DNA from: Macrocystis pyrifera
Lineage: Eukaryota > Sar > Phaeophyceae > Laminariales > Laminariaceae
Length of the DNA stretch: 64,000 bases
Assembly: GCA_031763025.1 (NCBI GenBank)
Contig: JASSKH010000017.1
Location: 9,092,254-9,156,253 of the forward strand
Direction: 5' to 3'
Below are positions 16,221 to 64,000 of the stretch, in pieces. The stretch's first letter is position 1. Every line of letters starts with the position of its first letter. The notes below the pieces were generated by a model. The model was not told where the DNA came from, ran no database searches, and was given only the letters and a program-made list of their open reading frames with translations. A program made the translations under genes and the position numbers.

Positions 16221-16227
16221 TACTGTA

Positions 16228-33280: not shown

Positions 33281-33303
33281 TTTTTTTTTTTGCGTGCGTG
33301 CAG

Positions 33304-42400: not shown

Positions 42401-42415
42401 CGGCATCCTCCGTTC

Positions 42416-42601: not shown

Positions 42602-42992
42602 ATATCATTTGTTTCGGTGTCCAACTTGGAAGATCTCAATATCCATATCTAATTTGTTTGGGAGAAAAACAGAGAAAAACGGAAGTTTCTCCGTTCTGCC
42701 GTTGTGTCTTTTTTATGCTGCCCCTTTTTTTCTTTCGTCTTTTCGACGTTCCGTTTGGTTGCCCACGCGCACGCACTCCCGGCTACTGCGCCCACCGATT
42801 CACTTTTTCTGCTGGCCCGCGCGCATCACATCATCTATCTATCTGATCTTCCTGCACTTGCTCACCTAGTCCCAGCGTCAGCGTGACGACGACAGAAGAT
42901 CTCACATGTGGCAGCCACGGTACAACCACTGTCCGATTCAGCACCATGCCGAGTACTAGCTCCACCAGCGGTTCGGCCCGCTCGGCTGACAG

Positions 42993-43085
42993 CAGCAGCA
43001 CCAGCGGCACCAGCGGCACCAGCAGCGGCAGCAGCAGGGCCAGAACGAGGAGAATGCGGCACTGCTCGCTTTGCGCAATGGGCTG
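42993..43085 (+). CDS. 31-codon Gln-rich exon, probably gene C
   Basis: Between CGGCTGACAG and GGGCTG|GTGAGT, phase 0 both sides, 93 nt. Reads QQHQRHQRHQQRQQQ then GQNEENAALLALRNGL, a polar coiled-coil segment. An in-frame TGA directly precedes the acceptor, which shows that this frame is used only from here. Alternative frames give Ser/Gly or Ala/Pro runs. Confidence 0.45.
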
Positions 43086-43089
43086 GTGA

Positions 43090-44400
43090 GTGGGTGTGCG
43101 CACACGTGCATGGGGAGGGAGGGCTATAGCACGCAGAGGGGGACCGACCCAGTTTTTATGAGGGCACAGGCGGGTCCATCCCCTCACCAATTTGTCGACA
43201 CAGAAGGCAGCAGTGCAAGAGCTCCATGTTTAGCGTGCCGTCGACGGTTTGTTCGACGAGCGCCCCTCGTAGACCGGTGCCACGGATCAGCAATGAGAAA
43301 GAATGAACCGCGGGTGTTGCTTCGCGAGTAGCGAATGAGTGAGTGAGTAAGTGTGCGCGATGGTATATGTGCTGATGTGCTTGCATGCATGTTGTCCTTG
43401 CGTGGATACAAGGGCGCAGGGTAAAAAGAAAAGGTCGAAAACAAGTGAGAAAAGTTGACGCCTCTCGGGCGAGCTAAGCGTAGAAGGTTTACTGTATTGA
43501 CTATGTAGGTTGGTTTGTTTTTCGTAAGGGCTGACAGAATGTATCATTCACTACTGTATACTGATGCTGTATGATAGGACTGCCTGTTTGCTGGTTTGTC
43601 AGTACGGTACCTGATACTGTAATATGCAGTGGGGATTGGTACGGTTTAAGAGCTATCTATATTTCTCAAAAAAGTACTTTTAGGACGGCACTCCCGTCGT
43701 GGAGACAAACTACTTAAAATTAGAGTTAGATATACGTTGTTTGTACACAGCAGTGCATGCAGTGCAGTACAGTAGGAAAAGGGTTGAGAGAGGTCACATG
43801 GCTTGTCATGAGCATAACAAAAGCTATACAGTATGGTATCAATAATACCCGTGCGGGTTTAACACCCTTGCGGGTTGATTATGTTGAATATAGCGACCAC
43901 AACAATGATAACCTGGGTGGTATCAGCCGTCTAAGAGCAGCGTGAGGGCCCAGCATCGCAGTAGGGGTAGGATCATGTTCCGCCCGTGCCGCACGACTCC
44001 TTCCATTGTTGGTTGTGACTCGGGACACCAGTCAATGTGTACCACCCACCCATCACGTAGTGGCCGTTTTGCTGTAATCATCGTCAATTTACATCGCCAA
44101 TGTTTCCTTCTATCCTAAGGTCAAACAGGCCTATATACTGCTGTAACTCACCCTTTTCTCCTAAACCGTGACCCCCACTGCACGATTTTTCGAATGCTGC
44201 TGCTTCACTGTTTGCTGACCTGCGTCCCTGTGCGGGCTGCGCCCTCACCCCCCCCCCCGCCCGCCTCCCTCCCCACCCCCGTCCCGTATCTGAGGCGCTC
44301 AGTGCTCGTCTAGCAACAGCAACAGCAACAGCACCGTGGTCACCAACGTGAGCACGGCAACCGCTACCTCCACTATCAATAGCAGCGGCAGCAGCAGCAG
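43090..44400. other. Intron or intergenic DNA, no gene seen
   Basis: It includes a half-copy of the palindromic GACTGCAGTCCC element (43678-43727) and C-rich tracts (44248-44280) before the Gln-rich region. No further exon is supported. Confidence 0.4.
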
Positions 44401-44405
44401 CAGCC

Positions 44406-44652
44406 CCGGCTCCACCACACCAGCAGCAATAGCCCCGGCTCTACCAACTCCTGGCCGAGATCGTGAGCACGATTCCCTCTTGCAAGCGCTCATGGAAGTT
44501 ATGCAGGAAGATGAAGAAGAGCAGGGGGCGGCTCTGCTCTTCTTCATCTTCCTGTATAACTTCCATGAGCGCTTGCAAGAGGGAATCGTACTCACGATCT
44601 CGGCCAGGAGTTGGTAGAGCCGGGGGTATTGCTGCTGGTGTGGTGGAGCCGG
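44406..44652. repeat. 247-bp near-perfect palindrome
   Basis: The left arm (44406-44524, from CCGGCTCCACCACACCAGCA to GAAGATGAAGAAGAGCAG) is repeated in reverse complement at 44532-44652 (CTGCTCTTCTTCATCTTCCT to GCTGGTGTGGTGGAGCCGG) with only a few mismatches and a loop of about seven bases. Both strands carry the same peptides, such as LLAEIVSTIPSCKRSWKL and SLLQALMEVMQEDEEEQ. One arm is presumably an inverted copy of a piece of gene C. A transcript would fold into a long hairpin. Confidence 0.9.
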
Positions 44653-44661
44653 AGCGGCTAC

Positions 44662-45325
44662 TGCACCATCGTGGCCAGGAACAACAGCAGGATCACCGCC
44701 AGCAGCAGGACCAGCAGGGAGAAAATCACCACCAGCAGCAGCAGAAAGGATGGGGGGGAGGGGGGGCAGGAGGAGACGGCGCAGGATCAGGAGCTGGAGG
44801 AAGAGGAGGAGGGGGCGGGGCCGAGGGGGTGGGAGAATCGAGGAGAAGCAGGCTAGCTTCACCGTCGTCAGCCGCAGCAGCAGTATCCCTGAAGTCAACG
44901 CTGAGCAGGAGAACAAAGAGCGGCGCTTGGAGGAGAAGCGCGAGCTGCACCATCTTGACCACCACCAGCAGGACTACCAGCACCACCAGCACCAGCAGGG
45001 AGAAGTGGAGCAGCAGCAGCAGGAACAGCAGGAGAAGGAGGTAAAAGTGGAGGAGGAGCAGGAGCAGGAGCAAGAAGAGGAGGCAGAGGAAGAGGAAGAG
45101 GAGGAGGAAGAGGAGGCGATGGAGGGGGGAGAAGAGGAGGACGGGGCGAAAAGGGACCAGGCTAGCCCAACCGCCGACGACACTTGTATGGCACCGGAGA
45201 AGGTAGTCTTGACGGACAGGACCGTTCGGGCGGCGCTGGAGGTCGCCACGGCGGCAACAGACAGGGTAAGGCATGATATGAGGGATGCCTTCTCTCACTC
45301 TTCTATCGTCGCGACGCACAGTCAG
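44662..45325 (+). CDS. Gene C exon: Gln/His/Glu-rich coiled coil
   Basis: After an acceptor CATCGTGGCCAG the frame reads EQQQDHRQQQDQQGENHHQQ, meets a G-rich stretch (44745-44840) where the frame changes, and continues EEKQASFTVVSRSSSIPEVN, then LEEKRELHHLDHHQQDYQHH, a run of about 40 mostly Glu/Gln residues (45030-45130), VLTDRTVRAALEVATAATDR and ends FSHSSIVATHSQ at GTCAG|GTGGGA (phase 0). The acidic and Gln-rich helices suggest a coiled-coil scaffold. The frame change lies among G runs, so an indel is as likely as an intron. The next exon continues the coiled coil in phase. Confidence 0.55.
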
Positions 45326-45470
45326 GTGGGAACTACAGCAGTATTATTTATCTTGAATAGAAGTACCACTGTAGTATACAGTGCATTGATTCCATTTTAC
45401 AGTTGATCAAACAGCGCCGCTCTTGAGTTTATCTGTCACTTTTCTGACTGGGCAACTGAAAAATGAGCTA

Positions 45471-45554
45471 TTACGGGGGTCCATAGTTAACAGGACCTAT
45501 GATTTGCCTATTTTACTAACAAAATTTGGTCCCGTTAACTATGGACCCCCGTAA
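45471..45554. mobile_element. Stowaway-like MITE, copy 16 (internally deleted)
   Basis: Both ends are intact and TA-flanked, but about 20 bases of the interior are missing (CTATGATTTGCCTATTTTAC). The matching place in the other arm (near 63910-63925) lacks the element. Confidence 0.85.
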
Positions 45555-46236
45555 TAGTCCGAAATTCTCGCACCTGCGACCTGCGACCCTCGAGAAGCGG
45601 GACACTGATCTGGGTAAATACCTCTCCGAGAGTTGTCACACTCAATCCGAGAAGAGCCGGCTCGATTTGCTCGCTTTACGTGGCAAAAACTATTATCTTG
45701 GAAGCGAAAAAATCTCCGTTTACCAACCTCAAACAAAAAAAGTCTCGCACCATAAACGGTCTCATTATTATTCAGTATTGCCACGCTCTTTTCGAGCTTT
45801 ACTTTCCGCTCCTCCCCCCCTAAAGAAGCATCCATTCCTGAGAAGATGAAGCACTTTTAAACTTTTTTTTTCAGTTGTCCTTTTATTCACGGTAGTACCC
45901 GGCACTGCTGTACACAGCCTAATGCCTGACTTTCGCCAGCAGGAGGTCAGCAGTAACGGCCTACGTACACGGTAGTATAATTTAGCTGGTACCTGGCAAT
46001 GCACATATGGTACAAGGCAATACTGCTGTAGATGGATCGTGTACCACTACACGATCCATTCTATTTTTTTGCTCATCCCTCAATTGATAAACATTTCACC
46101 AGTAGTCTGGTTTCAATCTTGTGTAGAGCACACGCAGAATCACAGCCCCCCTTCATTCTCTGTTACTACTACGATACTGGTCTGTATTTTCTCACTTCCC
46201 TCGTCTATTTGTCTACTTGTGCACACGCCGTCCCAG

Positions 46237-47397
46237 CTGACGGCGGACAAGACCCAGCTCGCTGCATCCAACGATACACTCCGACTGGAGAAGCGCCTAC
46301 TGGAATCCAAGGTGGAAGAACTGGTCGCTGAACGCGACCGCCTGGCCTCAACGCCCCAGGAGGCCGGCGTGGGCTCACCACCACACCGGACCAGCGACAA
46401 TGCCAACGACTGCTGCATCAACTGCGGCTACGGGAACCCCGATGCTGGCGGGGTGAGCGCGTTACCTGCGACGCCGTTGGGTGTCACGACTCTTTGTACT
46501 CGCGCGTCGCCGATTGCCGCCGCCGCTACCTTCGACAGCTTGCAAGCCGCGGACTTCTCTACTCCTTCCCCCCCGGACGTCCTCGCATCTTTGGAGGCCA
46601 CCGCAGAACCCCTGCCTTTGGAAGCGAGGGCCACTCCTACCACCGCCGCCTCCGCCGCTACCACCATTCCCTCCTCTATCCCATCCCCGGCCCCCGCCGC
46701 TACCACCGCAGCCCCCGTTGCTACCACCTCTTCCACCCCCGTTGCCTCCCCGGCCCCTGGCGCTACCACCGCCGCCGTCCCCACCCGGCCCCCCACCTCC
46801 ATCGCTACCACCACTGCCTCTTGCACCACCCGGTCCGCCCCCGCTGCCCCGGTCGCTATCGCCCCCCCCCGCTTCCCCTGCCCCCGCTACCGCCCCAGCC
46901 GCCTCCACCGTCTCCACCGCCACCCGGAAGCGTGCCTCGTCGAACGACAAGGAAAACGAAACACCGCAGCAGGGCCGCGGTGGGAAGGCCTCGGCAGGCA
47001 AGGCCGGGGGACGCCCACGCTGGGTCGGGGCCGGGGTCGGGAGCACGGTGCTATCGCCACCTGACGTTTCCTCGGGGAAGAGGCCCATTTCGTCGATGGC
47101 GAGGACTCCTCTTGGCACCGTTCGCATCAACACCACGCCCCGCTCGGTGTTGGTCGACAGGCCGCGGGCCACCAAGGCAGTGCCGTGCGTTGATACGTCC
47201 GGCCTCGGCACGGAGGCAGGAACTTCATGGCGAGGCAACAGCGGCGGTGATTTCGGTGGCGGCGGTCAGGGTGGTGGTGGCGATGGCGACAACGGTTGCG
47301 GTAGCAGCGTGTCGAGGGCATCGGCGACGACCAACGATGGAGGCACATCGATTGAGGCGGCTGGATCTAGGAAGATGCGGCGCGCTTCAGCGACGAG
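46237..47397 (+). CDS. Gene C main exon, left-arm copy
   Basis: Starts after CGCCGTCCCAG in phase 0: LTADKTQLAASNDTLRLEKR, a leucine-heptad coiled coil to about residue 45, then CCINCGYGNPDAGG (Cys knuckle, about 65-78), a long Pro/Ala/Thr region, NDKENETP (a KEN motif), GKRPISSMARTPLGTVRINT, a Gly-rich part and SRKMRRASAT. The apparent stop at 47399 overlaps the donor GACGAG|GTAGGG (phase 2). The frame shifts once at a run of nine C (46862-46870). Without one C the exon length (1160) fits both border phases. The function is unknown. KEN motifs serve as APC/C degrons in other eukaryotes, but a three-residue motif is weak evidence. The protein might be a cytoskeletal or mitotic scaffold, which is only a guess. 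Confidence 0.65.
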
Positions 47398-47674
47398 GTA
47401 GGGTACTTGTTGTTGCTCATCATCATATATATAACGCTGCGTTCGTTGGAGCCCTTCAGCATCCACGAGCGGTGTCGCCGTGCGATGTACGAGGTGTGGT
47501 TGGTGTAAAGAGCGGGCACTGGTCGATACTTTTAACATACATTTTATTTCATGTAGTAAGTACCTTCCCCTCCACCCCCCCCCGCCCCCCTGAGCACCCC
47601 CTACCTTCCGCTCTTGCAGCTGCTTAACCTTCCTGAAAACCGAAAAAGCGAGAAAAACAATATGTCGATTTTTT

Positions 47675-48572
47675 CAGGGCTTTTCGCGGGTCAGGTCAAA
47701 CCTCACGGGTCGGGTCGGGTCGGGTCGGGTCGGGTCAGCTGACCCGACCCGACTCGCGAAAAACTTGAGGTATGTTAACTTGACCGACCCGACCCGACCC
47801 GTTAGATTTGAAAATCTCCTGACTCGACCCGACCCGCGAGATTTTAAAGTCTCCTGACCCGACCCGACCCGCCACCTTCCGATTGACCCGTGGGACACGG
47901 GTTTCATGCGGGTCGGGTCACCTTGACCCGCGAGACCATTTTATCTTGACTCGAAGGTCCGACCCGCGGATCTGGCGCGTGGGTCGGCACTTCAAAAACA
48001 ATTTAATGTTCATTTTAGTGCCCCGCAGCGATATTTGACCTGGCTGTGTAGTGGGTATGAATGGCTGCGGGTATGCGTATATGAATTTGGCGGTGTTTTA
48101 ATGTTTGAATAGGATACAATAGGAGTGTTATTGAGCATTGGTACGAGAGAAGCCTTTGGGTAAGAGAGCGGGAAGTGATTCAAGTGTCGGATCCGCGGGC
48201 CGAATGCGCGGGTCCGACCTGCGGGTCAGTAGGAAACAACTGGCGGGTTATGCTGGTCCGACCGGCGAGTGACCCGCTTCTCGCGGGTCGTGACCTGACC
48301 CGACCCGTGAGCTTTTCATCACGTCTTGACCCGACCCGACCCGACCCGTGAGATTTGAAAAACTCTTGACCCGACCTGACCCGACCCACGAGATTTAAAA
48401 ACCTCTTGACCCGACCCGACCCGACCCGACCCGTGATATTTTGAACACTTCCTGACCCGACCCGACCCGTGATATTTTGAATACTTCCTGACCCGACCCG
48501 ACCCGACCCGTGACATTTTGAACACCACGTGACCCGACCTGCGGGTCGGTTCATGACCCGCGAAAAGCCCTG
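47675..48572. mobile_element. 898-bp non-autonomous hAT-like transposon with GACCC-repeat interior
   Basis: The termini CAGGGCTTTTCGCGGGTCA (47675-47693) and its exact complement (48554-48572) are flanked by a perfect 8-bp duplication GATTTTTT (47667-47674 and 48573-48580). CAGGG-type ends with 8-bp duplications are hallmarks of the hAT superfamily. The interior is mostly GGGTCGGGTC and its complement arranged in minisatellite blocks (47690-47930, 48290-48560) around about 300 bp of unique DNA. No transposase frame is present. The other palindrome arm lacks it. Confidence 0.88.
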
Positions 48573-48647
48573 GATTTTTTTCCTCCGCCACCGGCCGCAC
48601 GGTGTTGGCGTCCTGTTGACTTGATGTGTCGTACTCTGCCATTTCAG

Positions 48648-48787
48648 GGCTACTGTGAGCAGCAAGGCGGCGGCAAGGCCGACACCGATCGTGACCATGA
48701 GGAGGGCCGTGTCTCAGCAGAGGCCCTCCACTCGAAGCCAACTGGGCGCGACCACGAGAAGACGGACGGGATGGCCCGCCGGCTGAG
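48648..48787 (+). CDS. Gene C exon 48648, left-arm copy (probably frame-broken)
   Basis: Acceptor TCTGCCATTTCAG, donor GGCTGAG|GTACGA. In the phase set by the previous exon it reads RATVSSKAAARPTPIVTMRR then AVSQQRPSTRSQL and runs into a stop. The right-arm copy is two bases shorter at ACTGGGCGCGACC versus ACTAGCCGACC and stays open to the donor. So this copy appears to carry a 2-bp frame change, or it uses a different upstream phase (reading GYCEQQGGGKADTDR). Basic, Ser/Thr-rich tail region. Confidence 0.5.
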
Positions 48788-48878
48788 GTACGACATCGCT
48801 TAACTTTCATACTCGTACTTGGACCTAATTACAGTTATCTTGTTTCGAACCACACTTAATTACAAGGCTTGCGTGCAG

Positions 48879-48932
48879 CTCAGCGAATCTACGACGAATA
48901 ACGCCGGCGTCTACGACGACCTCCACGAGAAG
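48879..48932 (+). CDS. Gene C 54-nt exon, left-arm copy
   Basis: Between CTTGCGTGCAG and GAGAAG|GTTCGT. With phase 2 on both sides it reads SANLRRITPASTTTSTR. In phase 0 it would read LSESTTNNAGVYDDLHEK. It is the same length as in the other arm (61064-61117). The phase-2 reading links to the next exon without a break and is as basic and Ser/Thr-rich as its neighbours. Confidence 0.45.
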
Positions 48933-49634
48933 GTTCGTCTGTTAGTTTTTTTTTCCCGCTTTATTTTTCAGTCATGCCCTGCCGGGGTCGCTCCAACACT
49001 AACTTCAATATAACATTTTCTACATGAATTTCACAATAAAATAAAGTAAAATCCACACTATATTCAACATGAACATTCCCACACCAACTTGAATACAAAT
49101 GTCAACACAAATTCCCAGAAAAAAAAAATCGAAAAACAAATCGAACAAAATCGACAAAAAGAAAAAGAAGTCATTTGTGAAACTCGAGTCAGAATCGAAG
49201 ACCAGCCAGGAGTGAGCGAGGTATTTTCTTATGAACTAATTCAAATACTACTGTAAACCAATCGAACAAATTATCCGAAAGAGGATTTTCGGAACTCTAG
49301 TCAGAATCGAAAATCGGTCAAAAATTATATACAGTAGATAGTCGCTCCCACACTAACTCCTAGATGAAATCCCCACACCAACTCCTACTACAGTAGATGA
49401 AAAAAAACCACACCAACTTCAAGATTAAACGTCCAAAACAAATTTCGAAAAAAAACGAAAAGTGGATTTTCGAAAGTTGACTCAGAACAAAAAACACACA
49501 AAACCAAGCGAGATAGTCCCTACCACACTATTTTCTCATTTTGACCGCCTTATATCGAGCGGCCGCCTTATATCGATTCGTGCCGCTTTGTACAGGCCCC
49601 ACCACTGTACTCGTATGCATGTGTGATACGATTA

Positions 49635-49738
49635 TTACGGAGGTCCATAGTTAATAGGACCCATGGTATACATAAAAACCTATATATCTATCTTTGTTTA
49701 CTAACAATATTTGGTCCTATTAACTATGGACCCCCGTA
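49635..49738. mobile_element. Stowaway-like MITE, copy 17
   Basis: Ends TTACGGAGGTCCATAGTTAA and ATTAACTATGGACCCCCGTA, TA at 49633-49634. The flanking GTGTGATACGAT ... GATACGATACATACG is continuous in the other arm (60140-60165), which has no element. Confidence 0.87.
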
Positions 49739-49849
49739 GTAGATACGATACATACGTGCATGCGGCGTCTGGCCTGTTTTCGTCAGGTTTCACCTAATTC
49801 TGGACTCAGTCTGCTTCATTCACACATTCGTGTTCTATCGTTCATTATC

Positions 49850-49905
49850 CCTTGTGAGCGAGCGTAGCGGGCGGAAGACGCCCGCCGAGCGAAGCGCCTC
49901 GTATA
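49850..49905. other. GC-rich hairpin conserved in both arms
   Basis: GCGGGCGGAAGACGCCCGC can fold into a 7-bp stem with a short loop, inside a GAGCGAGCGTAGC...GAGCGAAGCGCCTC context. The same sequence is unchanged in the right arm at 60005-60055, in a region where neighbouring bases have diverged. Its role is unknown. Confidence 0.6.
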
Positions 49906-50034
49906 CAACAACTCAAGTGTCTTTGGCTTACCTTACTTCGCTTTACTCTGTTCTCTTATGTAACTCAATCAAATAATGTTGTCGTCCACGTCCGCCGTCC
50001 CCCGTCCCCTGTTTTCAACCCCTTGAAACAATAG

Positions 50035-50172
50035 GAGCGCCAGCAGGTCTACCAAGGACGCCGCACCAGCCATTGCCGTCGGAGGCCAGAAGGAGGTCCT
50101 GAAGACAGCGGGGGTGGCGTCCCGCACCAGGCAGGCGACGGCGGCGGCGAGGGGGGGGGGGGGGGGGGCAAG
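50035..50172 (+). CDS. Gene C exon 50035, left-arm copy
   Basis: Acceptor CCTTGAAACAATAG, donor GGCAAG|GTACCC. Phase 2 start, then SASRSTKDAAPAIAVGGQKE, VLKTAGVASRTRQATAAA and a Gly run from 17 consecutive G. The right-arm copy keeps the peptide with conservative changes (RPTKDAAPAVAVGGQRKV), which argues that it was coding in both. The G run differs in length between arms, so the last codons and the phase at the donor are uncertain. Confidence 0.5.
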
Positions 50173-51575
50173 GTACCCGTATAGTGCGGAAGCGGTGGGT
50201 GTAGGGAGAGGTGTTGGTGCTCAACGCCGATTCCTAACCGGCAGCCCCATCGTTACCTTAAGAACACCAACAGCACCTGCTACATTTTTCCATTTAAACT
50301 CTTCTACCTGTCCATACAGCACATCATGTGGATGATGTAGATGGCATGAAGCAGTGTGACAGACGGAGCTGTCGGTGACCCGCACATTGGACGTTACCAC
50401 TTTCGGTTTTCTTTGTCCTATATGGTTACGACCGTGGGCACTATTAGACCTACTGGTATTACTTCATCGTGGGGTTATTGCTGTAGTAAGAGTACCCTCG
50501 TCGTAGGAATTTGCGGCTTTCCATAATAAAGGACGTGTTGAAGCTTTTAGTTTCTATTCCTCAAGTAGAAATTACTGCATGCATTGATACATTATGACAT
50601 TACTGCTCTAGTCCCGTGTAACCACTCCCCAGCAGGGAATGCTGTGGGAGAGTAGTGTACCTGATGTTATACTGTAGTACTTTGCTGCCTGGTTAAAGTC
50701 TAATACTGGTATAGTACCTACTGTGCTTGGTATACAGTGGGGGCACCACAGCCGAAACGTGAGGGGGCGTTCTTTAGGGCGTGAAATCTGTGTGGGTTGA
50801 CTCGACTTGAAAGTGCTCGGCAGGATCAAGTTCGCGACTTTGATGTATGGTAGTAACGTGGGCACTTTACTCACTTTTCTGCGTTTGTTGTTTCCTCCAC
50901 ACTGCACTTGGCTTAAACAAACGTTTGTTGTTGCTTGTCGCGTGTTAGTAATGTACTATTGCCTGGGGTATTAGTGGTATTAGCGGTAGCAATGCCCATC
51001 ACGATCGCCGCAGGCTGGCACCTTCGAGCTTCCGCTGTGATAGTATTAATAGATGTTTGATGACGGTGTGTACGCGACAGAATGGCTAGGCCCCTCGCCG
51101 TTAACCTTTCAGTCTCACGCCGTCGAAACGTCCGGCATCATCGTTTTTGTTTGTTCCCTTCCGGACTGAGGGTGCTGTTATCACAATCTGTCAGAATAGG
51201 TAGCTCGCCTACCTTGCGTGCACTGCTGTTGCCATGTCGTGGAAAATTCATGCATGTTCTCGATCACACTGCTGTTGATGGCTTTCGAAGTATTCCTACA
51301 CACCTGGCTAGGCAGTAGCAAGGAAGAGTGAAACAGTATGGGTAGGCGCGTTTTGTTATAGAGTTTTGGAAGCGCCCATCGCGGCCGGCGATCTGTCGAG
51401 GACGCCTGCCTGTCTGTGGGGTGTGTTGTGATGGGGAGAATGGTTTTGGTGATCCGTCCCGACTATTCTCCCCCCGCGTTTCCCTTCCTTACGTACGTAC
51501 TGGAGCCTCCCTCTACTGAAGAGTCGGGGTCAGTGCACAGGTTTTTTCTGGAGATGTTACTCATTCGTTCTTTAT

Positions 51576-51680
51576 TCAAAAAGGGTGAGGGGGTAGGGGG
51601 GTGGTGATGGTGGGAGGGGGGGGTGGTCGGGGGAGGGGGATGGGAGGGTGTGGTGGAGGTGAGGGGGGGCTAGAAGATGT
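51576..51680. repeat. G-rich purine tract
   Basis: GGTGGTGATGGTGGGAGGGG-type DNA. The right arm has only a short equivalent (58360-58400), so it expanded here or shrank there. Confidence 0.7.
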
Positions 51681-52388
51681 TGGGGTAAAAATAGTACTGC
51701 TTGTTGTTGCTGTCCTTAAGTGTCTCTTTATCTCTGTAGCCTGGGTTGCTCGGCAAGGCATGTCTCTTAAAATCCACCCATCCTGTCCTTCAAACTGGTA
51801 TTCGCGGACGATTGTTAATTTTTTACGGCAGGCGCAAAAGGAATCTCGGCAGAATGAGACAGTACGCATCATGTCGGGCCATCGCGGCGGTCGTGGGGTT
51901 TTATGAAGGCTGTTCTCGTCGAAGCACGCGAGGCTGTGAAGCACGGGGGTGTTCATTGCCTTGTATTGCCTACCAGGAAGTCGCTACAGTTCCCGATACG
52001 GTGCACTCTTAGCCGTTCCCGGCAAGGGATGGCTGTTAGCTGTCACCGGCAAGGAATGACGAACGGCTTAAGGCCTAGAGCGAGAGATTACACGGAAGGA
52101 GGTGCAAAGTACAATCAATCATTGAAAATATTTTTTTCTTGGGGGGGGGAGGTGCTACCGCTCTCGCAAGCACCGCCGTTGGGCTTGCTCCTCAGCGGTG
52201 TCGATTTATCCCCCTTTCCTGTTTTTTTTTTTACTTTGTGCTCTAACAAATGATTGAAGCTCGACTGTCTCCGCCTTGGTGCTAGCGCTCAACGACCTCG
52301 GGTGACAGTCCATGCTATAACCATAAACGTTTAGAACTTGAGTGAGTCGCCAGTGCACCCGGCTCTACTGAGGGACACGGAGCTACTA

Positions 52389-52599
52389 TTACGGGGGGCA
52401 ATAATAAATAGGACAAAATGTTGTTATTACGGGGAACCATAGTAAATAGGACCAAATATTGTTAGTAAAAATAGGTAAATATATAGGTTTTTATGTATAC
52501 CAAAGGTCCTATTAACTATGGACCCCCGTAATAGTAAAAATAGGGATATAAATAGGTTTTTGTGTGTGCTGTAGGTCCATTTTTACCATGGTCCCGCGT
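52389..52599. mobile_element. Stowaway-like MITE, copy 18 (outer, interrupted)
   Basis: Left part TTACGGGGGGCAATAATAAA and right part CATTTTTACCATGGTCCCGC form one decayed AAATAGG-subtype element, split at TTGT-TA-GTAAAA. The right palindrome arm has no element here. Confidence 0.82.
52427..52531. mobile_element. Stowaway-like MITE, copy 19 (nested)
   Basis: A complete element inserted in copy 18 with TA duplicated at 52425-52426 and 52532-52533. The insertion point is the same internal base as in the nested pair at 8.1 kb. The left end is AAATAGG subtype, the right end TAACTATGG subtype. Confidence 0.88.
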
Positions 52600-52661
52600 A
52601 CAAAAACAAGATCATACTTGCACTGAACATTGTGTTTGATGTTCATTTTTTTTTGTTTCAG

Positions 52662-53328
<667 letters not shown>

Positions 53329-53689
53329 AAAATATTCCGCTCTCAAACCAAGTAGTTTGTCCCCGAAAGGTGGGCGCGCGGCAGCCGTTTAACTGCTAAC
53401 GTGCAAACAAATTCCAGTGTAATTCCAAGTGGTCTATCCCCGAAACTTGTGTGCACTTGTAAAGGAGACAAAAAGCGGCATGCTTCATAGTGTTTCGGGC
53501 GCTATATATTCGATGGAAAATGAGTGCGTGGGTGTTCAACGCAATCGCCGCCGTAAAAACACCAGAACTTTACACTTTGACCTGCTGATAACACGATAGG
53601 AAACATCATTACTACTACTGTTACTACTACTACTACTGCTGCCGCTAATTCTACTATTGCTACTACTGCTACTACTGCTGCTGCTACTA

Positions 53690-53794
53690 TTACGGAGGTA
53701 CATAATTAATAGGACCTATGGTATACATAAAAACCTATATATTTACATATTTTTACTAACAAAATTTGGTCCCGTTAACTATGGACTCCCGTAA
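53690..53794. mobile_element. Stowaway-like MITE, copy 20
   Basis: Ends TTACGGAGGTACATAATTAA and GTTAACTATGGACTCCCGTA, TA flanked, inserted in a short CTA/CTG array. Confidence 0.85.
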
Positions 53795-53995
53795 TACTAC
53801 CACCATACGATTCGCTGTGTACGTCTCTCTCCTCCTGTTCTGCAGGTGCACTGCTCTGAGCTCGTCACGTCGTCGCCTCGCTTCTACTATGTCGCGTCAG
53901 GGCTGTCTTAAGGGGACTGTAGAATAAATGTGCGAGTGCAGCAGGGGCGAGAAGGGAAAATATGAAAATATGCACCGTACGAGAAAAACAAGCGC

Positions 53996-54949
53996 CCTAA
54001 CTTACGAAACTAAAGTATCGAAACCTCGCTCTTTTTGTTTAGACCCACGCAGGGGCTATGCTAACACCAAGTCAAACGAACAATTACAGTAAATACCACA
54101 AGTAGTATGTTGTACTTTTATTTCGCACAGCGATCCCACCCCACCACTGTACCATTTTTTTTTATCCCCTAACCTGTTTAGGAGTTCGGTGATGTTTTCT
54201 CTTTTCTGTCGCGCACCCCCGGTGTACCACTCCATGCTGCCGTGCACAGCAGGGAGGTCTAGAGTTATTGCATTGTTTGCTGACTTCTTCGGGCACAACC
54301 AACGCACACCTCTTGTATCTCGCTAGTATTACATCAATAGAAGCGTTCAGCGCGGTTACGATTTTCCATCTTGTGTTGTCTTTTTTGGGGGGGGGGGGTG
54401 TACTCATGTCATCCCTCGCACCGCTACAACGCCGGGACGGAGCACGTCGGACCAGGCAGATTTTTCTTGCACCAAGCGCGAAGCGACGTGAGGTGATAGG
54501 CGAGTCGCATGAAGGGTGAGCTGCATCCTACTAATAATGTGATGCGGGCTTTCTTGCATATGGAGGGCATCGGGGGGCCGGGGGGGTTACTTGTTGCTTG
54601 GCCTACCTCCCAAACATATTTTCCCTGCACCTATCCCGTCCAATGTCACATGGTATGGTTACATCACACGTGGCGTGGTGTCGCCGCCATTTTTTTTCCG
54701 ACAGGTAACACCTGTTTCGCTTGGACGGCGGAAAAAGCGAAGGCAGTAGAATGCAGTACGACTGCAGCTGTTTGTGCAAGTACGGGCGGAAACATCACTT
54801 TCGTCCAGACGCGCTGTAGACGTGTTGTGCCGACTCTATGCTACCCTGCACCAGGCACCAGGCAATTAGTGTATATTTCCGTGTACCCATACTGCTGCTA
54901 TATGTGGCCACGGTAGCATGTTTGAAGTTTGCTGGTTGTAGGCGTTTGC
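53996..54949. other. Spacer between the palindrome arms
   Basis: About 1 kb that has no inverted partner in the window. It contains a G run with GTACTCATGT and the GACGGAGCACGTCGG repeat tail (54391-54560). The frames around 54509-54916 are not supported as genes. Confidence 0.6.
54391..54560. repeat. G-tract dispersed repeat in the palindrome spacer
   Basis: A G run, GTGTACTCATG, GCCGGGACGGAGCACGTCGG, then GGCGAGTCGCATGAAGGGTG and GCATCCTACTAATAATGTGA. The order is the same as at 8640-8935. Confidence 0.7.
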
Positions 54950-55144
54950 TCTTGAAGCGTTTGTTTCTCTCTTACGTTGTATACCTTCTCCCTCCTCTCC
55001 CTCGCGGCTCTCGCACGCTTATTTCAGTCCCCTTAAGGCAGACCAGACGTGAAAGAAAAGGAGCAAGGCGACGATGCGACAAGCTCAGAGCAGTGCACCC
55101 GCAGGCCAGGAGGAGAGAGACGTACGTAGCGAATCGCAGTTGTA

Positions 55145-55930
55145 CTACGGCAGTAGTAGTATACGATCTGGTTCAGGGATTCCGTGTTTTATAGTTAGAG
55201 ACTGAAACTTCTTACACACCTTCCGTGCCCTTATGCCGGGGGTTGTGTGGACTTTTTGTTTTGTCTTCTGTCAGTTATCTGGGGCCTTCTGCAACCCCAG
55301 ATATCTACAAAAAAAACAACGAAAAAGTTGCATTCCTTCGATACACCCCTCGGCACAATGGCACGGAAGGTGCGTGAGAAGTGTCAGGGTCTAATTCGAA
55401 AAAAACGCGTGAACTTCCGAGCTTTCGTGGGAAAAAACGTGGATTTCACCGTTTTTTTCGAAGTTACTCGGTTTACGTCTGAAATCGACTTTTAGCGATA
55501 ATTTTTGCTTAATACCGATTCTACTCAGTCAGTCCTTCGATTTTTCGCGCGAAGTCGTTGTACAGATATGCCTTGGAGTACCTAGAGCCGTCTTGTCCAG
55601 AAAATGGTTTCTTCCAACGGATACACCTCATGATTGTTGGCCTTTTTTGAAGGCCTGGGGTAAGTCGGGACACAGTCTCAACGCTAGCGCCAGCCCCATT
55701 GGCAAGCTCTTAACCAAATAAAACTGGAATTTTGTGCCACCCGCTTCCGCTGCCCATTACAGTCAGCATGATACCAAATATGTGACATTCGAGTGGCTAT
55801 TGCATGCAGCACTCATGGTTGACGCAGTTTTAGGGCGTTTCGCTCGAACCAGCCTGTAGTACCAAGTGCTGCTTTTATATCATGATGCCATCAACTTAAG
55901 AAGCAGTTCGTACTGTATGACTACTGTATG
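55145..55930. other. Arm 2 stretch without a clear left-arm partner, no gene
   Basis: The left arm has a CTA array and a MITE in the equivalent place. A plus-strand frame at 55247-55495 ends in a basic stretch but has no recognisable domain or splice support. Confidence 0.35.
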
Positions 55931-56092
55931 GCGTTATTACGGCGGCGATGGTGTGAATGAACGCGCACGCGCCCCTTTACAATGCCCAGAGCCCGAAAAC
56001 TGTGGGGCATGCCGCTCTTTGTCTCCTTTACAAGTGCATACACGTTTTGAGGAAATACTACTTGGAATTAGACTGGAGTCGTTTGCACACTA

Positions 56093-56202
56093 TTACGGAG
56101 GACTTTAGAAAATAGCACCTACGGTATACAAAAAAAACTACAGTATATATTTCCCTACTAATACTCACTATATTTTGCCCCATTTACTGTGGTCCCCCGT
56201 AA
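56093..56202. mobile_element. Stowaway-like MITE, copy 21
   Basis: Ends TTACGGAGGACTTTAGAAAA and CATTTACTGTGGTCCCCCGT, TA flanked, strongly diverged. It lies at one edge of the arm-2-specific segment. Confidence 0.78.
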
Positions 56203-56218
56203 TAGCAGTGAACTCTTT

Positions 56219-56294
56219 TAGGACTGCAGTCACGTTTTGGGGACAAACTACCTAGAATTTCAGCGTTTCGTCCCCAAAACGGGACTGCAGTAAA
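56219..56294. mobile_element. Palindromic GACTGCAGTCCCGTTT element, copy 3
   Basis: GGACTGCAGTCACGTTTTGG and ACAAACTACC pair with GTTTCGTCCCC and AAAACGGGACTGCAGT. It is a complete hairpin of about 75 bp next to the MITE. Confidence 0.65.
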
Positions 56295-56458
56295 ATGACG
56301 ATCTAATTTATGGACTCAAATTTGGCACAAATAATGGAACCATGGATGATATCGAAATGTCTCGGAATTTGTATCGAAGCGAGGTCACTTCTTCCTTTCG
56401 CTCCCGAAACCTCGTAAGCTTTACGAATCGGTCGCGAAAGTCTTGAGAGTATTGAAGG

Positions 56459-56974
56459 ATGCCGCGAACCACGCGCTCAACACCGGCCCTCCCAGCAGCC
56501 GCTGCTGCTATCGCGTCAGCCCCGGTTCCGGCGTTGCCCGAGGAGGCTCCGCGCCCCAACCCGAATCGGGCGTCGGCGACCTGGGTAGACCCTTCCACAC
56601 CGCTGGAGCAGCTGCCCTGCTTCAAGCAAGGGGCCTTGGGAGCCGGGGCGGTTCTGGACCTCACCCGTGTCTTCCTTGCGACGGGCAGCAGCTGTGCGGT
56701 GGGTTCGCGGCATGAGGTTGCGTGCGCGCTCGGCGGGGTGGTACCCAAGGTGCCACCGCGCCCGGGTTCCGACACATGGCCCCAAGTACCGGAGGCCGCG
56801 GAAAGGATTGCCACCTTTGGGCTCGTATACCCAGATCATTTACAGGTATCAACCCCGCGCAGAGTATGTGATTCGCCACTTTACTCAGCGCGGGGGGAAA
56901 TACCAGACGAGACCTCCTGCCCGGCGCAGGAGACCTCATCCAATCCAATACTTACATTAAATGATCCACAGTAG
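56459..56974 (+). CDS. 171-aa ORF in the arm-2-specific segment
   Basis: An ATG-to-TAG frame, MPRTTRSTPALPAAAAAI, then ALPEEAPRPNPNRASATW, PLEQLPCFKQGALGAGAVLD, LTRVFLATGSSCAVGS and IATFGLVYPDHLQ. The middle looks like a folded protein. The minus strand is also open here (ERVVRGILQYSQDFRDRFVK and KLTRFRERKEEVTSLRYKF), so the coding strand is not certain, and CAG|GTATCA at 56845 could be a donor. No family is recognised. It lies in a stretch that the left arm lacks, so it was inserted here or lost there. Confidence 0.35.
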   Translation: MPRTTRSTPALPAAAAAIASAPVPALPEEAPRPNPNRASATWVDPSTPLEQLPCFKQGALGAGAVLDLTRVFLATGSSCAVGSRHEVACALGGVVPKVPPRPGSDTWPQVPEAAERIATFGLVYPDHLQVSTPRRVCDSPLYSARGEIPDETSCPAQETSSNPILTLNDPQ

Positions 56975-59735
56975 AGAGACAGAATACTGCAGTACTAATA
57001 AAAGAGTTAAAGGGCTGCCACGCGCCCACGTTTCGGGGACGAACTACTTGATTTCAGAGTGAGATAATGCTTGCCCTGATGGTAAATGAAGAGCATTGGG
57101 GGCACCTTGAACGCGTGTTCTCGTGTCGCGCGGTGGAATGCTTGCCGCCTCAAAATCGTACCCGGTGCACTCATTGGCTGTTGGGACACACACGGAGTAA
57201 GAATGGCGCTTTTCGTGTTTTTTTGTGTTTAGTTTGGCTTGGTTTCCATCTTGAGTTTTTCAGCGGAGGAAGGGAGGGGGAAGGGGTTTTCGGGCTTTTT
57301 GGTGGAACGATTTTTACTTCTTTCCTTGGCACTGGCACGGCTCTGCTATCGTGGGGGAAGCGGCGGCGGCGTCGGTAGAGGTGGTGGACTGATTTTGATG
57401 GCGATGTATCGATACAATTTACCCGGTGTATATCGTAGTAGAGCAGCAGTAGAAATAGTAGTAGTAGTAGTAGTAAGGGGTGGGGTGAGAGGGTCGAACG
57501 CTGAAGGGTTCCCACGTACTGTAACTGACCACGACTACACCAGCACGGAAACAAAAAAAAAGGAATGTCAAACACAATGTTTAGCGCAAGCATGATTCGT
57601 TTGAGTAGCTCTGCGTCCCTCCGTAGAGCCAGAGACTTTCTTAAGTTCCAAACGCGTATAGTTACAGCATGGACTGTCACCCGAGGTCGTTGAGCGCTAG
57701 CACCAAGGCGGAGACAGTCGCGGTTCAACCGTTTGTTCGAGCACACAGTGAAAAAATAGAAGGAAAGGGGAATAAATCGACCTCTGAGAACAAGCCCAAC
57801 TGCGGTGCTTGCGAGAGCGGTAGCTCTTTCCCCCCCCCCCCCCCCGCCATTTGCGTATAGTTTGTTCTCAATGGTTTATTTTACTTTGCACCTCCTTCCG
57901 TGTAATGTCTTGCTCCAGGCCTCGAGTCATTCGTCATTCCTTACCGGTGACGGTCAATAGTCATTCCTTGTCGGTGACAGTTAAGAGTGCACCACAAGGG
58001 GAACTACAGAAGTCTACTGGTTAATACTATTAATAGTAGACAGTACAAGGCAAGAGGCAATGCGGCGACCGTCCTCGTTACGGCAAACACTCTTGCTTCA
58101 TTCACAGCCTTGCGCGCTCCGACGACAAAAAAACGTCACCAATCTCCACGACGGATGGGCCGATATATAGCGTACTTTCTTCCTTTGCCAAGGTTTCTTC
58201 CGCGAATGCTGTAAGAAACCGACAATCGTCCTCGAATACCTCTTTCAAAGCCAAGATCGGTTTCAAGAAAACCACGTGCTTCTGATCAGACCGCAGATAA
58301 ACAGAGACTCAAGGACGGCTAAAACGGGTGATGCTAATATTATCCGAGTATCTTTCAACCCCCCTCCCACCATCACCACTCCTACTCCCTCACCCTCTTT
58401 GAATAAAGAATGCATGTGTAAAATCTCCAGGAAAACCTGTGCACTGACCCCAGCCCTCCAGTAGAGGCTACAGTACGTATGATACGGAAGGGAAACCCGG
58501 GAGGAGAAGAGTCGGGACGGATCACCAAAACCATTCTCCCTACTACAACACACCCCACAGACAAGCAGACGTCTTCCTTAGACAGCCCGCCGCGATGGGC
58601 CCTTCTAGAACTCTAGAACAAAACGCGCCTATCCGCACTGCATCACTCTCCCTTGCTACTGCCTAACCAGGTATGTAGGAAGACTTCAAAAGTCATAAAC
58701 AACAGTGTAATCAACAACGTGTATAAGTTTTCCACACCATGGAAGCAGCTGTGCACGCAAGGTAGGTAAGCTACCTATTCTAACAGATTGTGATAACAGC
58801 ACCCTCGATCCGGAAGGGCACAAACAAGAACGATCTTAATATACTACACCTGACATTAATAACACGCGACAAGCAACAGCAGCACGCTTTTGCTTAACCC
58901 TAGCACAGTGTGGAGGAGACAACGAACGCAGCAAAGTGAGTAAAGTGCCCGCGTTACCATCATATATCAAAGGAGCGAACTTGATCCTGTTGAGCAGTTT
59001 TAAGTTGAGTCAACCCACACCGGTTTCAAGCCCTCCCTCACGTTTCGGCTGTAGTGGCCCCACTGTATACCAAGCACAGTAGGTACTACCGGTATTAGAC
59101 TATAACCAAGCAGCAAAGTACTACAGTACATCAGGTATAATACTCTCCCACAGCACTCCCTGCTGGGGAGTGGTGACACGGAACAACGATAATATCATAA
59201 TGTATCAATGCAAGCAGTAGTTTCTACTTGTAGAATAGAAACTCAAAAGCCTCAACAGGTCTACTTTCCAAAGCCGCAAATTCCTATGATGAGAGTACTC
59301 CTACGACAGCAAAACCACTACGTAGAATTACGGTAGTACTACTAGGTCTATTACTGCCCACGGTCGTAACCATATAGGACGAAGAAAACCGAAAGTGGTA
59401 ACGTCCAGTGTGCGTGTCACCGACAGCTCCGTCTGTCACTGTGCTTCATGCCATCTACATCATCATCATCCACACGATATGCTGTGTGCACAGGAACGTG
59501 AGTCCGTAGTGAGTGGTACCAAGGCGCTGTGATTTAGGCCGAAAGAAGACAACACATAAAACAAGAAGAAAAGCCACACACGCCAATTTCCATGCATCCC
59601 CACGTAGAAAAGTTGAAACGGCTAAAGTAGCAGGTGCTGTTCGTGTTCTTAAGGTAACGATAGGGCTGCCGGTTAGGGATCGGCGTTGAGCACCAACACC
59701 TCTCCCTACACCCACCGCTTCCGCACTACGGGTAC

Positions 59736-59865
59736 CTTGCCCCCCCCCCTCGCCGCCGCCGTCGCCTGCCTGGTGCGAGATGCCACCCCCGCTGTCTTCA
59801 GGACCTTCCTCTGGCCTCCGACGGCGACGGCTGGTGCGGCGTCCTTGGTGGGCCTGCTGGCGCTC
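59736..59865 (-). CDS. Gene C exon, right-arm copy of 50035-50172
   Basis: Minus strand, acceptor AACAATAG at 59866, donor GCAAG|GTACCC at 59736/59735. It reads SASRPTKDAAPAVAVGGQRK then VLKTAGVASRTRQATAAA. It differs from the left copy by substitutions that mostly keep the amino-acid class and by a G run of nine bases instead of seventeen, so the phase at the donor differs between copies. Confidence 0.5.
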
Positions 59866-61063
59866 CTATTGTTTCAAGGGGTTGAAAACGGGGGACGGGG
59901 GACGGGGGACGGTGGACGGAGACGACAAAATCATTTGATTGAGTTGCATGAGCGAGTAAAGTAGATTAAAGTAAGGTAAATGTTGTTGACCAGGTAAGTA
60001 CGAGGCGCTTCGCTCGGCGGGCGTCTTCCGCCCGCTACGCTCGCTCACAAGGGATAATGAGCGATAGAACACGAATGTGTGAATGAAGCAGACTGAGTCC
60101 AGAATTAGGTGAAACCTGACGAAAACAAGCCAGACGCCGCATGCGCGTATGTATCGTATCACACATGTATACGGTAGTGGGACCTGTACAAGGCGGCACG
60201 AATCGATATAAGGCGGCCGCTCGATATAAGGCGGTCAAAATGAGAAAATAGTATATCAGCGGCTATCTCGCTTGGTTTCGTACTTATTAATGGTATGTTT
60301 TTAATTCTGAGTCAACTTTTGAAAGCTTCTTTCGTTTTTTCGAAATTTGTTTTCGACTTTTAATCTTGAAGTTAGTGAGGGTGTTTTCATCCAGGAGTGA
60401 GTGTGGAGATTTTCATCTAGGAATTAGTGTGGGGGCGATTGTCTACATTAGTTTCGATCGATTTTCGATTCTGACTCGAGTTCCGAAAATCCTCTTCCGG
60501 ATAATTTTTTCGATTGGTTTAGTAATTGAATTAGTGCAGAAGAAATACCACGCTGATCCGAGTTTCGCAAAACCGTTTTGTTTTCCTTTTTTTTTTCTAT
60601 TTGCTTTTCGAATTTCTTTATCTGGGAATTAGAGTTAACATTTGTCTCAAAGATAGTGTGGGAGTATTCATGTTGACTAAAGTGTGGACTTATTATATTA
60701 TATTGTGAAATTGATGTAGGAAATGTTATCTTGAAGACGCGTTCTACGATAGAGGTAGCACATTTCCGCTAAAATATTTTCTGAATGGCGGGGTTCCTTA
60801 ACCAAAAATCGTCGGAACGACAATCTTGTTTCGGACTATGACGTTTTTATATACTTGGGCCTTGGGATGATTCATCGGGACGCAATTTGATTTTTGCTGA
60901 AGTCAGTTTTCGGGTCAGGTATGAAGCTCTTTAAGTGAGGAGCCTCAGAAAAATTAGGGGGAACTTCTATCGTAGAACGCCTCTGAAGCAAGTGTTGGAA
61001 CGACCCCGACAGGGCAAAGCCTAAAAAAAAACAGTAAAAAAGAAGGAACAAAAACAGACGAGC

Positions 61064-61117
61064 CTTCTTATGGAGGCCGTCGTAGACGCCGGGGATATTC
61101 GCCGTAGACACGCCGAG
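61064..61117 (-). CDS. Gene C 54-nt exon, right-arm copy, GC donor
   Basis: Minus strand, acceptor TTGCTCGCAG, exon SACLRRISPASTTASIR in phase 2. The donor is AAGAAG|GCTCGT: the GT of the left arm has become GC. GC-AG introns are a known minor class, so the site may still work, but the change could also mark decay. Confidence 0.45.
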
Positions 61118-61206
61118 CTGCGAGCAAGCCTGTCATTAAGTGTGATCCAACCAAGACAACTGTGAGTAAGTCTAAGTACGAGTATGAAAGTGAAGCTATG
61201 CCGTAC

Positions 61207-61344
61207 CTCAGCCGCCGGGCCACCCCGTCCGTCTTCTCGTGGTCGGCTAGTTGGCTTCGAGTGGAGGGCCTCTGCTGAGACACACCCCTCTTCGTGGCCA
61301 CGATCGGTGTCGGCCTTGCCGCCGCCTTGCTGCTCACAGTAGCC
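61207..61344 (-). CDS. Gene C exon, right-arm copy of 48648-48787
   Basis: Minus strand, acceptor GCCATTTCAG, donor GGCTGAG|GTACGG. In phase 2 it reads RATVSSKAAARPTPIVATKR, GVSQQRPSTRSQLADHEKTD and GVARRLR, open throughout and ending in phase 2 as the next exon requires. The length (138 nt) is two less than in the left arm, so this copy is probably closer to the ancestral reading frame. Confidence 0.55.
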
Positions 61345-61696
61345 CTGAAATGGCAGAGAACGACACATCAATTCAACAGGACGCCAACACCGTGCGGCCG
61401 GTGGCGGAGGAAAAAGTTAGCACAATGTTTTACTTTTTTTTTTGGTGTTCAGCAGGGTTAAGCAGCTGCAAGAGCGGAAGGGAGGGGAGGACATGCTCGG
61501 GGTGGGGGGGGGAGTGGAAGAGAAGGTACTTACTACATACTGTAAAACCTACAGTAAAATAAAAGTATCGACCAGTACGCGCTCTCGACACCAACCACAC
61601 CTCGTACATCGCACGGCGACACCGCTCGTGGATGCTGAAAAGGCGCCAACGAACGCAGCGTTATATGTATGATGAGAGCAACAACAAGTACCCTAC

Positions 61697-63208
61697 CTCG
61701 TCGCTGAAGCGCGCCGCATCTTCCTAGATCCAGCCGCCTCAATCGATGTGCCTTCATCGTTGGTCTTCGTCACCGATGCCCTCGAACCGTTTCCGCCGCA
61801 ACCGTTGTCGCCACCGCCACCACCACCCTGACCGCCGCAACCGAAATCACCGCCGCTGTTGCCTCGCCATGAAGTTCCTGCCCCCGTGCCGAGGCCGGAC
61901 GTACCAACGTACGGCACTGCCTTGGTAGCTTGCGACCTGTCGGCCAACACCGAGCGGGGCGTGGTGTTGATGCGAACGGTGCCAAGAGGCGTCCTCGCCA
62001 TCGACGAAATGGGCCTCTTCCCCGAGGAAACGTCAGGCGACGATAGCACCGTGCTCCCAACCCCGGCCCCGACCCAGCGTGGGCGTCCCCCGGTCTTGCC
62101 TGCCGAGGTCTTCCCACCGCGGCCCTGCGGCGGTGTTTCGTTTTCCTTGTCGTTCAACGAGGTGCACTTTGGGGTGGCGGTGGAGACGGTGGAGGCGGCT
62201 AGGGCGGCAGCGGGGGCAGGGGGGGAGGTAGTGGCGACGGCAGCGACGGTGGCGGGGGTAGTGGGGGCGGCCCGGATGGTGCAAGAGGCAGTGGTGGTAG
62301 CGATGGAGGCGGGGGGGCGGGTGGGGGCGGCAGCGGTGGTAGCGGCAGGGGCCGCGGGGGAAGTCGGGGTGGGAGTGGTGGTAACGGCAGGGGCCGGGGG
62401 TGGGATAGAGACGGGATTGGTAGTAGCGGCGGAGGCGGCAGTGGTGGGGGGTGGCCGCCGTTTCCGATGAAAGGAGCTCTGCGTTGGACGCGAAAGACGC
62501 AAGAACGGCGCGGGTAGGAGGCGTGGACATTTCCGGTGTAGCGGCAGGGGCGGGAGAGGTAGCGGTGGTAGCGGTGGTAGCGGCAGCAGTGGCGGTGGTG
62601 GGGGCGGGCGTGGTTTCCAACGACAAGGGTTCTGCGGTAGCCGCGAAAGAGGCAAGGAATTCAAGGGCGAAAGGCGTGGAGAATTCCACGGCAGCGGTGG
62701 GGGGCGGGGGGGTGGTGCGGCTGGCAACAATGGTAGCGGCTGGGTTGGGGGTGGCCGTCGCTTCCAAAGGCAGGGGCTCTGCGGTGGCCGCCAAAGATGC
62801 GAGGACGTCCGGAGGGGAAGGAGCAGCGAGGTCCGCGGCTTGCAAGCTATCGAAGGTAGCGGCGGCGGCAATCGACGACGCGCAAGTACAAAGAGTCGTG
62901 ACACCCAACGGCGTCGCAGGTAACGCGCTCATCCCGCCAGCATCGGGGTTCCCGTAGCCACAGTTGATGCAGCAGCCGTTGGCGTTGTCGCTGGTCCGGT
63001 GTGGTGGTGAGCCCACGCCGGCCTCCTGGAGCGTTGAGGCCAGGCGGTCGCGTTCAGCGACCAGTTCTTCCACCTTGGATTCCAGCAAACGCTTCTCCAA
63101 TCGGAGGGTATCGTTGGATGCAGCGAGCTGCGTCTTGTCCGCAGTCAGTTGCACGGCTACGGTGTGCAGGCATGAAGCGGCCTCCTTCCAGGCCTTCACG
63201 GTATTGGC
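61697..63208 (-). CDS. Gene C main exon, right-arm copy
   Basis: Minus strand. It starts after CCTCCCAACAG with ANTVKAWKEAASCLHTVAVQ, 19 residues that the left copy lacks, then the coiled coil LTADKTQLAASNDTLRLEKR, the Cys knuckle CCINCGYGNPDAGG, about three repeats of a unit containing VLASLAATAEPLPLE (the left copy has one), the KEN motif LNDKENETP, RTPLGTVRINTTPRS and SRKMRRASAT. The apparent stop is overlapped by the donor GACGAG|GTAGGG at 61697/61696. One frame shift occurs at a run of six C on the minus strand (62446-62451). With one base less, 1511 nt fits the phases on both sides. Confidence 0.62.
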
Positions 63209-64000
63209 CTGTTGGGAGGGCGAGGGACGGCGCGTGCACAAGTAGACAAATAGACAAGGGAATTAAAAAAATACATACCAGGCATCGTAAGAGTAACGGA
63301 GAATAAAGGGGGGCTGTGATTCTGCGTGCGCTCTACTCGTACAAAAAAATAGAACCAAAAACTAACGGTAAAACGTATCAATAGAGGGATGGCCAACAAA
63401 TCAGAATGGGTCGTGTAGTGGTACACTATATTCATCTACAGCAGTATTTCCTTGTACCATACTAGGTATATATTGCCAGGTACCTGCTAAATTCTACTAC
63501 TGTGTACATAGGCCGCTACTGATATACTGCCGTCCTCCTGTTGGCGAAAGTCAGGGATTAGACTGTACAGCACCCAAGTACCCGGGATAAAACAAAAAGT
63601 CCTGTAAAAAACAGATACCGGAATAAACTTATTTCATTTTCAGCAATGGATGTCTCTTCAGGGGCGGAAACAGGTAAAGCTCGAAAAGAGCGTGGTTAAA
63701 CGACCGTTTATGGTGCGAGACTTTTTTTGTTTGAGGTTGGCAAACGCAGATTTGTTTGCTTTCAAGATATTTTTCGCCCCATAAAGTGAGCAAATCAAGA
63801 CGGCTTTTCTCAGAATGATTCTGACTACACTCAGAGAGGCATTTACCCAGATCAGTTTCCCGCTGCTCGAGGGTGGAAGGTCGCAGGTGCGGGAATCTCG
63901 GATTACTTGGTATATAATACCCGGTAGATCATTTTTCAGTTGCCTAGTCAGAAAAGTGACAGACTCAAGAGCGGCGCTGTTTGATCAACTGTAAAATGGA

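Follow-up and report, generated by a model that had tools for sequence, protein, structure and literature searches.

Near the right end of a 64,000-nucleotide stretch of the genome of the brown alga Macrocystis pyrifera (contig JASSKH010000017.1:9,092,254-9,156,253, one of 223 contigs in an assembly that totals 537,376,219 bases), referred to here as the window, lies an imperfect palindrome whose two arms, A and B, each carry a copy of the same multi-exon gene. That the palindrome is an inverted duplication is almost certain. The fuller account, which we hold to be probable as a whole, is that the duplication is old, that it belongs to a small cluster with an older copy of the gene, C, and that ectopic gene conversion has made the cluster a mosaic. 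We infer the following order of events. A unit of some 13 kb, containing a single multi-exon gene, would have been duplicated in inverted, tail-to-tail orientation within the cluster that holds C; a switch of template to the opposite strand during repair or replication would be a likely origin. Each arm would afterwards have accumulated its own substitutions, indels and private insertions, with copy A decaying after the duplication, while short stretches would have been swapped inside the cluster by ectopic gene conversion.

The extent of the palindrome follows from alignment of the window with itself (BLASTN), which yields a chain of inverted matches that are mostly 72-92% identical. When 30 kb of flanking sequence on the right and 10 kb on the left are added (positions above 64,000 correspond to 64,000 + i, where i is the position in the right flank, L009), the chain begins near 41,340 and reaches about 68,410 (L009:4410), a total of about 27.1 kb, with the last 4.4 kb of arm B outside the window. 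A preliminary description of this DNA, which suggested the self-alignment with the right flank, had recognized inverted arms around a spacer of about 1 kb and a palindrome of more than 18 kb cut by the right edge. The arms, the cut and the spacer (960 bp) are borne out, but the size was understated: the left start lies near 41,340 rather than 45,391, because the window edge concealed about 4 kb of each arm. Both arms have defined ends, at 53,994 and 54,955 on the inside and at about 41,340 and 68,410 on the outside. The inverted, collinear similarity spans exons, introns and intergenic DNA, so the chain of matches upholds the reading of the palindrome as a segmental inverted duplication.

Each arm carries one multi-exon gene, gene A running left to right and gene B right to left, so that the two facing copies that had been described converge tail to tail on the spacer. 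The conserved pieces of the gene are an exon that begins with ATG (exon 1), an acidic, Gln/Glu-rich exon (e3), a conserved block (e4), two further exons (e5 and e6) and a basic last exon (e7), all of which were placed by visual inspection of open frames, splice signals and conservation. Among matches of at least 200 aligned bases, none to the palindrome region between -10,000 and 41,000 exceeds 266 aligned bases. The block at 42,088-44,393 has at least 41 matches in the whole assembly (40 of 724 candidates scored); among those listed two are full-length, and these are arms A and B, while at least 39 are short (about 90-235 bases, 71-85% identity).

The third copy and the mosaic of relatedness

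To the right of arm B, and separated from it by a run of 5,000 N, a third and more diverged copy of the gene, C, is observed at a distance of about 6 kb in the orientation of B. Blocks in C correspond, in unchanged order, to the upstream/exon 1, e4, e5, e7 and downstream parts; the other matches near it are to CTA repeats and a dispersed 110-bp element. There are then three nearby copies of the gene, the nearness of C being conditional on the N run. The earlier statement that the arms are not two gene family members does not hold as worded, because the nearby copy makes them members of a small gene family as well as arms of a segmental duplication.

The synonymous divergence (dS) of the coding pieces between B and C is 1.76, 0.59 and 0.35, and C is therefore regarded as an older paralogue. 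The ratio of nonsynonymous to synonymous divergence (dN/dS) between B and C is 0.26, 0.39 and 0.55 in three coding pieces of 39, 99 and 38 codons. Between A and B it is 0.29 in one half of e4 (132 codons) and 0.94 in the other (169 codons), 0.58 in e5 and 0.35 in e7 when whole exons are used, and 0.05, 0.78 and 0.36 for shorter core pieces of 40, 100 and 38 codons. The B-C values, together with those between A and B, argue that the gene was once a real protein gene, and the codon comparisons indicate that it had been under purifying selection. The mixed A-B values suit relaxed selection on at least one copy, to which wrong exon models may contribute, and copy A appears to be decaying.

The relatedness of the three copies changes along the unit. 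Ten three-way blocks were picked from the BLAST matches, and their identities are given here as A-B/B-C/A-C in per cent. Along the gene the two arms resemble each other and C stands apart, in upstream/exon 1 (90/62/61), e4 (92/73/73), e5 (93/82/80) and e7 (95.5/73/72), as in the first downstream block (88/76/72), while in the five later downstream blocks, taken in order (86/87/85, 84/88/87, 73/86/73, 78/76/71 and 86/88/89), C is about as near to both arms as A is to B. In windows of 80 columns the number of changes unique to C drops from 18-30 to 1-9 around A 50,430-50,510, and a change-point test on 423 two-state sites places the switch at A 50,438-50,444, with C-unique sites making up 119 of 138 to its left and 65 of 285 to its right (maximum chi-square 152.2; no value above 20.0 in 5,000 permutations). 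Three copies without an outgroup supply branch lengths only and not a rooted tree, and for this reason unique changes were counted; a candidate reading in which B and C are sisters downstream was dropped on the same ground. In the 1,264 columns to the right of the switch 65 changes are unique to C, 143 to A and 77 to B, so that C, with the fewest, is not the outlier that a ((A,B),C) tree demands. While the switch point itself is observed, its cause is a matter of interpretation, and past conversion among the copies would explain the mosaic most simply.

The main and serious rival, which we nevertheless consider unlikely, retains the inverted duplication and dispenses with conversion, so that selection alone would have produced the mosaic: the downstream segment would be a constrained non-coding element, for instance an RNA gene or a long 3' untranslated region, with fast evolution elsewhere in C. 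The downstream segment shows no prominent coding frame, and the identity of C to A and B in the two blocks that immediately follow the switch is 85-88% despite a coding dS of at least 0.35, both of which favour constraint; the coding exon e5, in which constraint would be the natural cause, has a comparable dip in C-unique changes. Under a sister relationship of A and B along the whole unit, however, C should hold the largest number of unique changes downstream rather than the smallest, and an Rfam search across the window returned no family at the gathering score. The abruptness of the switch is compatible with conversion and with selection alike.

Several further observations weigh against the account of duplication, cluster and conversion. 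In e5, two windows with 120 columns between them contain 4 changes unique to C, 6 unique to A and none unique to B, while the neighbouring windows have 13 and 14 C-unique changes, and selection could thus mimic part of the mosaic. The five blocks past the switch are uneven, since three have near equal identities, one has A as the outlier (73/86/73) and one has A and B slightly closer to each other (78/76/71). The A-B dN/dS climbs to 2.22 in late e3 and to 3.07 in exon 1 read in its ATG frame, and other, wrong frames sometimes score equally low in the A-B codon tests; the mixed outcome of these tests weakens the exon models. Copies were counted genome-wide for the one 2.3 kb block at 42,088-44,393, and the nearness and orientation of C depend on what the N run stands for.

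Divergence between the arms

The arms were aligned by MAFFT (10,669 aligned columns, 84.8% identical), and within the arms proper (10,474 columns) A and B mismatch at 14.5% of the columns. The divergence is patchy, ranging from 8.5% to 25% among the segments found by binary segmentation (Table 1), and the best single split improves the log-likelihood by 95.5 units, whereas no gain above 9.9 arises in 500 shuffles. Over the whole alignment, edges included, gap runs number 90 in the row of arm A and 85 in that of arm B. Among the private insertions, an arm-A stretch of about 0.9 kb between e4 and e5 (47,676-48,576), rich in (GACCC)n repeat arrays, is without counterpart in B, and arm B for its part has roughly 0.75 kb of its own opposite A 53,393. 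A terminal-inverted-repeat element at 49,633-49,742 is likewise confined to arm A, where GATACGAT stands on each side of it, while in B GATACGAT occurs once and uninterrupted. With this divergence and these insertions, the arms have evolved separately for a long time without wholesale homogenization, and the earlier view that they are diverged, and do not represent one strand read twice, is sustained.

It is very unlikely that the palindrome is kept up today, in the manner of the mammalian Y, by arm-to-arm gene conversion, an exchange that the preliminary description had named as possible in large palindromes. The inspection of identity along the arms for conversion tracts, which it had proposed, does reveal patches that could be read in this way: a block of 3,019 aligned columns at 8.5%, which takes in DNA upstream of and between the exons and is largely non-coding by the exon models, is flanked by blocks at 21%, and the blocks around e4, e5 and e7 are 92-96% identical between A and B. 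The arms of mammalian Y palindromes, however, are nearly identical, while here the mean mismatch of 14.5% and the retention of private insertions indicate no recent arm-wide homogenization, and the arms are not near-identical along their length, the outermost block being at 21% and the innermost at 25%.

An assembly artefact, in which two haplotypes or one strand read twice were joined head to head, is scarcely credible even though assemblers can be confused by inverted copies, because the arms are 14.5% apart, far too much for alleles, with many gap runs and private insertions, because neither the window nor its spacer contains any N (the palindrome lying entirely to the left of the N run in the right flank), and because the assembly matches a reference whose source is haploid (PMC10498591); the haplotype misjoin was rejected on these grounds. 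That reference is described as derived from a single haploid female gametophyte by PacBio sequencing at about 100x, with 537 Mb in 35 scaffolds and 188 contigs and a GC content of 50.37% (PMC10498591), with which the 50.7% of the window agrees loosely.

Exon models, encoded product and dispersed elements

The coordinates of the features are collected in Table 1. Within the inferred e3 of gene A lies a hairpin, a smaller inverted duplication inside the large one; in arm B the stretch is single and forms no hairpin, and in gene A the inferred e3 frame runs into a stop within the hairpin. In gene B the frame of e3 changes at a long G run, and the difference in the length of e7 between the copies includes a longer G run in A, which alters the end frame. 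Some of these frame changes, being located at homopolymers, could be sequencing errors.

The e4 block consists of a coiled-coil-like start, a Pro/Ala/Thr-rich middle and an end with KENETP and ARTPLGTVRINTTPRSVL (the KEN/RTPLG part). The change of frame between the coiled-coil and KEN/RTPLG parts was considered as a sign of a pseudogene and rejected, since it is present in A, B and C; its presence in all three points to an unrecognized intron in the low-complexity stretch. KENETP occurs in A and B, with DNETP at that place in C, and the stretch ARTPLGTV.INT.PRSVL is common to all three copies. We take this stretch to be like a destruction-box region and KEN to be like the KEN motif. On that assumption the cluster might encode a fast-evolving, kelp-specific cell-cycle regulator whose inverted pair and third copy exchange sequence by conversion, so that the 3' regulatory segments stay alike while the proteins diverge, but this is a decidedly improbable proposal.

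Searches for known families gave no assignment. Pfam families scored below their curated cut-offs in all eight stop-free stretches of the palindrome that were searched, the best being TFIIA, which scored 18.2 bits in the acidic low-complexity exon where its cut-off is 36.2. No match at E <= 0.01 was obtained for two parts of the gene B product in a protein database that may not hold brown-algal proteins, where 8,000 candidates sharing the most words and 376 candidates were scored, and ARAGORN found no tRNA across the window. To the left of the palindrome, an open frame at 33,300-33,478 ends in a way that resembles a protein kinase by eye (HGDIKPENIL..LADLGMA).

The spacer contains a dispersed repeat (54,413-54,564) with at least 46 other matches in the assembly (40 of 2904 candidates scored). 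This repeat and a segment at the outer end of arm A (41,437-41,491) match adjoining parts of one place near 8.7-8.9 kb, and one repeat family may therefore lie near both turning points. The terminal-inverted-repeat element of about 110 bp, with ends TATTACGGGGGTCC and GGACCCCCGTAATA, has many copies on both strands. A scan for it with a fixed pattern found 5 copies only, most of them without a clear 8-bp flank repeat; a match after sliding was seen for one copy, whose flank is GTA/TAG-rich. We accordingly report the 8-bp duplication for the copy at 49,633 alone.

Table 1. Positions of the palindrome, gene pieces, divergence segments (A against B) and elements in the window
Feature	Position	Strand	Remarks
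Left arm A	41,340-53,994	+	12,655 bp; gene A left to right; outer similarity from about 41,340, inner to 53,994
Spacer	53,995-54,954		960 bp
Right arm B	54,955-64,000, on to about L009:4410	-	13,456 bp in total; gene B right to left
Gene A exon 1	42,946-43,085	+	ATG to GT; 140 bp (141 in B), frame-shifted relative to B
Nested hairpin in inferred e3 of gene A	44,394-44,664		271 bp, 93% self-complementary
Gene A block e4	46,237-47,397	+	probably two exons
Gene A exon e5	48,648-48,787	+	140 bp (138 in B), frame-shifted
Gene A exon e6	48,879-48,932	+	
Gene A last coding exon e7	50,035-50,204	+	170 bp (160 in B)
Downstream segment	50,438-52,400		from the switch (50,438-50,444) on, C roughly as near to B as A is
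Gene B last coding exon e7	59,706-59,865	-	
Gene B exon e6	61,064-61,117	-	followed by GC, not GT
Gene B exon e5	61,207-61,344	-	
Gene B block e4	61,697-63,208	-	
Divergence segment	41,340-42,217		21%
Divergence segment	42,218-45,466		8.5%; 3,019 aligned columns
Divergence segment	45,467-46,122		21%
Divergence segment	46,123-51,669		11.7%
Divergence segment	51,670-53,994		25%
Terminal-inverted-repeat element, arm A only	49,633-49,742		about 110 bp; 8-bp duplicated flank
Copies of the 110-bp element (among others)	261-370, 7,397-7,505, 7,872-7,981, 8,106-8,214, 16,226-16,334, 29,316-29,424, 49,633-49,742, 52,425-52,533, 53,688-53,796		

Comparison with known systems

The locus is otherwise a fairly ordinary old duplication, which by itself overturns nothing. 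It offers a clean example, in a brown alga, of a gene duplicated long ago in inverted orientation and possibly made a mosaic by conversion, and if conversion is indeed the cause, it could serve for comparing how coding and downstream sequence are homogenized in a haploid-diploid organism. A narrow search of the literature on palindromes, inverted duplications, gene conversion, UV sex chromosomes and tail-to-tail pairs, too limited to prove that brown algae lack earlier examples, gave no brown alga among the titles listed.

The diverged inverted arms, the short spacer and the inclusion of exons, introns and intergenic DNA are features shared with old inverted segmental duplications that carry genes, from which the present locus differs in that a nearby, older third copy has a segment that is closer to both arms. 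With local gene clusters that are homogenized by conversion it has in common the nearby copies, the mosaic similarity and the sharp switch, but here three copies are seen and the divergence is strong over most of the unit. A large inverted repeat with genes on both arms and possible exchange between them also recalls the ampliconic palindromes of sex chromosomes, such as the VCY palindromes (PMC6790999), and a putative female sex-determining region of Macrocystis pyrifera is placed on scaffold 2 (PMC10498591). A sex-linked, centromeric or amplified setting, which the preliminary description had named, would be conjecture for this locus. In contrast to those palindromes, the arms described here are 14.5% diverged and carry private insertions.

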